Source: Quercus robur
Lineage: Eukaryota > Streptophyta > Magnoliopsida > Fagales > Fagaceae
Reading direction: 5' to 3'
Length of the DNA: 64,000 nucleotides
NCBI RefSeq assembly: GCF_932294415.1
Contig: NC_065544.1
Span: forward strand, 25,891,351 to 25,955,350
The notes below the pieces were generated by a model that saw only the letters and a program-made list of their open reading frames with translations, did not search any database and was not told the DNA's origin. Of this stretch, positions 53,753 through 56,700 are shown piece by piece (position 1 is the first letter of the stretch; each line of letters begins with the position of its first letter). Both the position numbers and the translations under genes were made by a program.

Positions 53753-56700
53753 CTATATGTCCAAAAAAATGTGTATAGGGCTCTTAACTCTGTGTTTACC
53801 GTCATTCCATTCCAGTGATGCTGATAAACTGGAAATATTGTTCAATGGTGGCCCCTTTATCACAACCATGAAAGATTTTTTCTCGTACAAGTGACTAAAA
53901 GCTAGTTCTTTCGGAACAACAGTGACCTTGAGAGTTGCTGGTGCCTTGACAATTGCCTTGTATATACCTTTTTCCAAGCCAACATTTGTAACTGTCCTAT
54001 GAAAGATGGCTGATATACTAGAGTTAGCGCTATTAAGTTGCAAATACATGGATGGGTAATTTAGGGCATCATGTCCTCCAATGTCAGGGATACTTGAGCA
54101 ATTTGTTTTCTCTTCAGTGAACACTTTTAGTGCTGTCCCGGAGTAACCCTCATTACATAGGAAGTGGATGTAGTCGGACTTTGACACGTCATAGATCAAA
54201 CCGGGATGCAGTGCTCTAACTGGGTCAATTTGGCCGGCCCCGTAGGCTAACTCAGCTTGGACATCTTTGATTTTCAATTCAGATGCTGATCATCAATTAA
54301 GAAGCAAAATTATAAAACACTCAGAAAGCCTAGCTAATTTTCATATAAAACTTATTTTAGGGAAGTATGGGATGATATCTTGATCTATGTGTTTACATAG
54401 AAGGAATACATATGTACGTTAAGATTATTACAAATTTTACTACTTGAGCTTAACACACTAAGGTGACTATAAATTTGATTGGTGCAACTTCAATAACTAA
54501 TAAATAAATATTTAATTTTTTTTTTTTGTGAATAGTGTCACACTAGTTTGTAAGGGTAGTGCAATAAAATTTGTAGCATCTCCATTAATCACAGAGAAAA
54601 TCCATATCACAATTAAGATTTGAATTAAGCCATCACAACAAATATATATTAACATGTGTAATATTTACTCTAAACCAACTGGCATGTTAAGTATTAACAA
54701 CATTGCTGGTAAACAATAAGCAATGTGATTGCATTAGAGAATTTCAATTAAACACTAATAACCTCTAATTGACACCATTCAAGTGGTGGTTCTTGTAAAG
54801 TGGCACTAATCTTTAACACATTAAATGGGAGAATTTAAGGGGACTAACCAGTTGTCATTAAGGCCGATTTGATTGCAGCAGGAGACCAATTAGGGTGGAA
54901 TGATTTGACATAGGCAGCGGCAGCTGCCACATGAGGGCAAGCCATTGATGTTCCAGAAATTATATTATACACATCAAATCGGTTGTCTTCAAGATCCCCA
55001 GTCACTGATGAAAGTTTAGAGTAAGCAGCGAGAATATCTATTCCAGGTGCCACAATATCCGGCTGCAAATCATACATAATTTAAAACCCTCATTCTAGTA
55101 TATATGCTAAAAAAAAAATACACAAATTTATGCCTATAATGGTAATCATTGCAAGGGTTACCTTAATTATGGTGGAAGAGATCGTGTTCGGGCCTCGAGA
55201 TGAAAAGGAAGCCACAAAGGGTGTAGCGGCATTGTGGACTGCTATAGACTTGTATATGACAGCTTGAGGGGCTCTAAAAGTTTTACCAATGAAAAAAAAA
55301 AATCGTAAAGAAAGTTAAAATATCAATTAGAAAATAAATATAGGTAGAATAAAAAATAAAAAAAATGGTTCCCTATACTTACCTGGTTGAGTTGACATAT
55401 ATTTCAATTTTGTCACCAACATTAGCATCAATGAAGGCAGCAGGGATGGTAAATGTAAACCCTGTATCTGTCTGCTGTTGGAGAGATACAAGAGCCCCCA
55501 ACCCACCTATTTGCTTAACGTAATCTTGAATTAGTCCTTCTTTGCATAGCACAATCTTTCCCTTGACCTTATTTACGTCCAAACTCCCATCATCACATAA
55601 CCTGCCCAATTCTTTAATTGGTTAGTGCTACTAATATTAGCAGACAAGGGTGATCTTCAATTAAATTTGAAATAATAATCATACTCTAACATAATCTAAG
55701 TGTATATGTGTGAAACTCATTCCTAGAGATTTGAACTCTAATCCTTGCCCTTCTTCCCTTTATACCACAAGAACTTATATTTGTAAAGGGACTATCATGT
55801 CAAGGGTAAGCATCAGTTAAAATTCCTTATAATTACCAAGGAGAGTGATCTTGTTCTAAACTTCTATTGGCTGCTTTTACCGCAGTGGTTAGAGGGTACA
55901 TCCGTTTATTTGGTGAAAACGTGTTGATGGAAAATCCCTGTTATACAATGCACCAATAAATGTATATGTTAAAATCATATATATATTTAGAAAACCCACA
56001 CACAAATCAATGAAGAAATATTAGACTCATTATTAAATATTATAGAAATCAAAGACTCATCAAATATTAGAAAGAAGTAACTTACACCAATCTTCTCAAC
56101 CAAAAAAAAAAAAGAAAAAAAAAGGGGAGCTTACAGCAGTTTTTATGCCATTTCCAACTTTAACCAGAGTCCTAAACTGCCTATCCATGCCAGAAGCGCC
56201 AACAGTCAATATCCAAGGAGCTGTGTTTTGCACAGAATACAAATATGGGCCGTTATTCCCAGCTGAACATGTTGTCAAAATCCCCCTCTTCATTGCATGA
56301 AAGGCACCGATCGCAATGGGACTGTTAAAATAGCTTGTCGAATCCCCTCCGATGGATATTGATATCAAGTCAACTCCATCATCAATGGCATCATCTAGTC
56401 CAGCCAGAAGGTCTATATCACTGCAACCATCGGCCCAACACACCTTGTACATTGCAATGCGTGCTGATGGAACCCCACCTCGAGCTGTGCCTTTGGCTAA
56501 ACCGTATAAGCTTGCCCCTGCTATCGAGGCACCTGCTATGGTGGACGAAGTGTGACTGCCGTGGCCTTCCTCATCTATTGGGGATGGATTTGGGTGGGGA
56601 GTGGTGGAACCGTGGTTGTAGAACCTTGCACCTATTACCTTGCTGCATAAAATGGTAAATGGCTTGGAAATTAAATGAGACATCCATGCATGTACAAAAG

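Follow-up and report, generated by a model that had tools for sequence, protein, structure and literature searches.

The window analysed here is a stretch of 64,000 nucleotides from Quercus robur (contig NC_065544.1, positions 25,891,351 to 25,955,350 of the forward strand). It carries a tandem array of four cucumisin-like subtilase genes on the minus strand, with a repeat unit of 14.57 kb, and the last of these genes (copy 4) is a mosaic whose 3' half is nearly identical to that of its neighbours and whose 5' half is diverged. The halves meet in a sharp seam, which is probably the right edge of a tandem array homogenised by repeated unequal exchange (concerted evolution). A mirror seam on the left, unequal levels of divergence, and a rooted order of three interior spacer units were observed in the same window. 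The features are listed in Table 1.

The G+C content of the window is 33.8%. Comparison of the window with itself gave a 37.3-kb match (99.2%) at an offset of one unit. Each unit was divided from left to right into five blocks, defined on copy 2 as S (18190-21253), M (21254-26028), R (26028-29331), C (29332-29920), and D (29921-32755). Block M contains a copia-type gag fragment (observed in the copy 1 unit) as well as the 3' part of the subtilase gene, blocks R and C contain the 5' part and 204 bp upstream, and D and S are spacer. The interior copies are near identical and the outer edges are more diverged, the left side being judged within the window. Exons were placed on copy 1 using reading frames and GT-AG borders and were transferred to the other copies by similarity. 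In copy 4, exon 10 occupies 54849-55062, intron 9 occupies 55063-55161, and exon 9 occupies 55162-55273.

To locate the seam, sites at which copy 4 is unlike all of copies 1-3 (private substitutions) were counted, and columns gapped in any copy were dropped (120 and 48). Divergence is not uniform across copy 4, as it should be if no seam existed. Private substitutions number 2/4773 left of position 55172 and 93/3238 to its right, up to an insertion at 58417; beyond the insertion (60651-61175), the count is 36/520. The change-point gain at the step was 76.4 log units, and 200 permutations gave at most 7.7. In an alignment whose ends lie about 30 bases apart at the insertion, the right side gave 92/3210 and the gain was 75.9 (at most 10.1 in 1000 permutations); matching the ends altered the right-side totals little, from 128/3738 to 129/3758. 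The best breakpoint was 55172, within exon 9, with a 2-unit support interval of 55102-55172 in both alignments. The step is thus real, sharp, and beyond chance. A preliminary description had placed it between the exon 10 region and exon 9, with near identity to units 2 and 3 on the left and a divergence of several percent rightward to 61175. All of this was borne out, and its interval of 54593-55170, which is bounded by the variable sites 54593 and 55172, could be narrowed to the support interval given above.

Coding and noncoding sites agree on the step. Left of 55172, copy 4 has no private change at 757 coding sites (exons 10-11 and ten bases of exon 9) and one in intron 10 (1/563). Synonymous changes number 0 at 171.0 sites in exons 10-11 versus 15 at 335.8 sites in exons 1-9 (Fisher p 0.0036). 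When noncoding sites only were counted, the left side had 2/4016 and the right side 68/1960 (3.5%). The clean 3' half might instead be ascribed to tighter purifying selection on exons 10-11, without any difference in history, and exon 10 does encode the catalytic serine (residue 528). However, the noncoding sequence left of the step is equally clean. The noncoding sites rule out constraint as the cause of the step, and we give this explanation practically no weight. The near identity left of the seam continues through spacer S4 into copy 3, and M4 is therefore not an island. One of the dropped gap columns lies left of the step, where copy 4 lacks a single base at 54515. At 54593, the A of copy 4 more plausibly arose as a recent change in that copy alone, since the 578 clean bases that follow would be very unlikely at the right-side divergence; the seam is therefore narrower than first described.

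Right of the seam, the divergence of copy 4 is itself uneven (Table 1). The inner boundary was placed at 56821 (support 56695-57526), with a gain of 20.1 and at most 9.4 in 200 permutations, and the two-segment fit had the best Bayesian information criterion (BIC) among fits of one to five segments. A four-segment fit set off a low patch at 55636-56721 (8/1080). Introns 6-8 carry 5/535 private substitutions versus 63/1425 in introns 3-5 plus the tested part of intron 2 (Fisher p 4e-5). This contrast rests mostly on intron 2, since it is weak when introns 6-8 are set against introns 3-5 alone (14/480; p 0.034). Beside the change-poor introns 6-8, synonymous changes are dense in exons 8-9 (55162-55601; 7/78.7), an oddity that speaks against a simple divergence gradient. 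Over exons 1-9, the proportions of nonsynonymous and synonymous differences (pN and pS) were 0.020 and 0.045, which suggests that these exons are under only moderate constraint.

Within the limits of the window, a mirror step marks the left border of the homogenised interior. In copy 1, spacer block S (S1, 1-3047) has 28/3042 private substitutions (0.9%) relative to S2-S4, and M1 has 2/4775 relative to M2-M4. The left change point was found at 3047/3048 with a gain of 20.1 and a support interval of 3048-6914, which places the mirror seam at 3.0-6.9 kb. The extra 3.6-kb segment at this place (3048-6680) was excluded from the comparison. An insertion left of copy 1 or a deletion in the other units may account for it, and no clean target duplication was found at it by eye. 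The array, or at least its spacer, probably continues left of the window, because S1 is still homologous to 18190-21241 from the first base of the window.

The units between the seams were ordered by rooted substitutions, with gapped columns left out of the count. For the R-C-D-S units, the rooted order is ((1,2),3), with three substitutions for it and none for another order. One site joining units 1 and 2 lies in R (rooted by copy 4), and two lie in S (rooted by S1). This is the order that stepwise unequal exchange would give. At residue 250, copies 1 and 2 have Asn, which is probably derived because cucumisin has Ser there, like copies 3 and 4. Block M contains no informative substitution: copies 1 and 4 differ by two private substitutions each, and no site divides the copies two against two. 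Since M is near identical in all four copies, the amplifying crossovers could have occurred anywhere in M, and the step marks only their right-hand limit.

The number of exchanges was explored with a block model of two parents, x and y, in which arrays of up to five copies were searched. The minimum was three exchanges, whether crossovers only were allowed, conversion was added, or older haplotypes served as partners. One founding crossover at the seam, with simple expansion after it, gave either a first copy of state xxx or, where that copy falls beyond the window, uniform S blocks. Neither matches what is seen, namely an unlike S1, an unlike R4, and M blocks that are all alike. Divergence is lower in S1 than in the noncoding sequence right of the step (0.9% vs 3.5%; Fisher p 3e-10); therefore, more than two parental states or rounds are involved, and not a parent pair of a single age.

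We propose the following course of events. An older tandem duplication would have produced neighbouring cucumisin-like subtilase genes, which drifted apart by several percent. Misaligned neighbours would then have undergone repeated unequal exchange, which multiplied and homogenised the interior unit. The exchange would have included the 3' half of the last gene (exons 10-11 with intron 10 and the adjoining flank) but reached no farther than intron 9 or the border of exon 9, leaving exons 1-9 and 204 bp upstream in their old state. Several points weigh against this scheme. A variant with gene conversion predicts nearly the same pattern, and the basis of the scheme is the assembled sequence of the window alone. 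The rooted sites are few, only three, and two A in a homopolymer at 11580 are absent in copies 1 and 4, which groups these two copies. The block model uses one pair of states for both S and R, which is contradicted by their unequal divergence. A more elaborate version, in which at least three nested exchange rounds of unequal age (divergences of about 5%, about 1%, and about 0.05%) moved the homogenised zone stepwise from the 3' flank into the terminal gene, to about 56.8 kb and later to 55.17 kb, is put forward only tentatively. If it were true, the last copy would be a layered record of successive exchanges and would combine its own upstream region with N-terminal and C-terminal parts in a new way.

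The preliminary description had traced all hybrid copies to one event of unequal crossing over, in or close to intron 9, that joined two older adjacent genes. Such an event would account for the 5' half shared by copies 1-3, the different one of copy 4, and the common 3' half. The intragenic seam, the older 5' half in the last copy, and the separate histories of the two halves remain part of our account; the one founding crossover does not. Under such an event, the first parent would be expected to retain a 3' half of its own, yet M1 equals M4 except for the two private substitutions in each. If the first parent lay left of the window, S1 should equal S2-S4, and it differs from them at 28/3042 sites and is followed by the 3.6-kb segment. 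Copy 1, with its homogenised 3' half and diverged left spacer, is thus unexplained whether or not it is the first copy. The right-side divergence is also uneven (23/1643, then 106/2115), and that of the left spacer is milder. We regard a single crossover as unlikely. Interlocus gene conversion that replaced the 3' half of copy 4 (and likewise M1) is a somewhat better candidate, although we doubt it as the sole cause. It would fit the few private changes of M in any of the four copies, and the low patch at 55636-56721 resembles patchy transfer, though BIC favours two segments. Against it, S4 is also near identical, so that the tract would exceed about 7.8 kb, and no left end of it was seen in copy 4. 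Conversion may be a partner or a rival of unequal exchange; we infer that crossing over was the agent and that more of the array lies left of the window. An assembly artefact, either a haplotype switch or a misjoin, seems improbable. The seam does adjoin a 4.8-kb near-identical block, where assemblers can misjoin, but each copy has private changes, and the seam falls inside a gene whose reading frame and splice sites are unbroken across the join, as they would be after a haplotype switch as well. Homogenisation by repeated unequal exchange is the reading that we retain.

Copy 4 ceases to be homologous to the array at 61175, a point 6 kb away from the seam that we infer to be the right border of the older duplication. 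Beyond 204 bp, the upstream region of copy 4 differs from that of copies 1-3. Blocks D and S had no convincing counterpart in the right flank (61176-64000), the best match having an E value of 0.17; for the 3.6-kb segment, the best match in the same flank (E 0.009) was 39 bases beside a run of A. The crossover had also been thought to explain why spacer D is missing after copy 4. D is missing there because the homology ends at 61175, not because of the seam; a tandem array of any other origin would end in this way, with no need for a crossover inside the gene. Part of spacer D (190 bp, 15811-16001) is about 84-85% similar to pieces of intron 2 at 13834-14017 and 57527-57714 and may be a small dispersed repeat. 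The insertion mentioned above also lies in intron 2, in copy 4, and is flanked by 8-bp direct repeats, GATGTAAG, at 58409-58416 and 60643-60650 (target duplication). Its termini read TAGGAATGA and, for the opposite strand, TAGGACTGA. Together with the 8-bp repeats, these short inverted ends suggest a hAT-type element. A tRNA search of the window found none.

The total exon length is 2214 bases in all four copies, and copies 1, 3, and 4 are open over 737 residues. The premature stop of copy 2 falls on the last base of exon 7 (26696), directly before the splice donor. In copy 1, the only copy scanned whole, Pfam domains PF05922 (I9), PF00082 (S8), and PF17766 (Fn3-like) scored above their cut-offs, and the PA domain PF02225 reached 21.2 bits, below its cut-off of 23.9. 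The best solved relative of copy 1 is cucumisin of the S8 family (PDB 3vta, 4yn3), which matches residues 110-733 (E 4.6e-183); the cucumisin propeptide chain matches residues 24-109. The catalytic Asp, His, Asn, and Ser are D139, H203, N305, and S528 in copies 1 and 4, and those of copy 1 align with cucumisin. After the catalytic Asp (13217-13322), copy 1 reads GIYINAPSF and copy 4 GIYIDAPSF, compared with GIWPESPSF in cucumisin. Copies 1 and 4 differ at 21 amino-acid positions, every one of them within residues 1-486, which hold Asp, His, and Asn; residues 487-737, which hold Ser and the Fn3 domain, are without a difference.

Table 1. Positions of the subtilase array, its seams, and associated features in the window.
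Feature	Position	Strand	Remarks
Spacer block S of copy 1 (S1)	1..3047		continues past left window edge
Extra 3.6-kb segment	3048..6680		left of copy 1 only; mirror step falls here
Near-identical array interior	6681..55171		M R C D S repeated, about 3.3 units
Subtilase copy 1	10041..15150	-	11 exons, 737 aa, open
Spacer D	15355..18189		upstream of copies 1-3, absent after copy 4
Subtilase copy 2	24608..29716	-	11 exons, premature stop at codon 379
Subtilase copy 3	39180..44294	-	11 exons, open
Subtilase copy 4, mosaic	53753..60971	-	11 exons, open
Exons 10-11 and intron 10 of copy 4, homogenised part	53753..55062	-	no copy-4-private coding difference
Seam (change-point support interval)	55102..55172		intron 9 and adjoining edge of exon 9
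Mildly diverged part of copy 4	55172..56820		23/1643 = 1.4%
Strongly diverged part of copy 4, insertion not counted	56821..61175		106/2115 = 5.0%
2226-bp hAT-like insertion, intron 2 of copy 4	58417..60642		8-bp repeats GATGTAAG, ends TAGGA.../...TCCTA
End of copy 4 homology to array	61175..61176		204 bp upstream of copy 4 start codon (60971)

Unequal exchange between repeated genes is a textbook mechanism. The mechanism proposed here is accordingly an ordinary one, and the example is well resolved. It illustrates how, in a young array, the 3' half of the terminal gene can be renewed although the old 5' half and upstream region persist; because a renewed 3' half then sits on an old 5' half, whole-gene trees mislead. 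A literature search for plant subtilase tandem duplication by unequal crossing over found none, and one for tandem subtilases and gene conversion found, by titles and abstract openings, no study of such a seam. In grapevine, recent local tandem duplication of subtilases is described, with a largest cluster of 13 members (PMC4378017). The tandem duplication is like that in the window; no intragenic seam is mentioned in the sections available, and the term 'gene conversion' is absent from the main text. Homogenisation of tandem repeats by unequal crossing over and conversion is treated, in the sections available, for histone and Stellate arrays (PMC12400953), whereas the array described here consists of four large gene units. 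A further parallel is the Sdic array of Drosophila melanogaster, in which, according to the available part of the report, one copy is diverged in its 3' part after escaping exchange (PMC7475035). Like copy 4, it is a single, partly diverged copy; Sdic arose from two different genes, sw and AnxB10, whereas both parents of copy 4 are subtilases.
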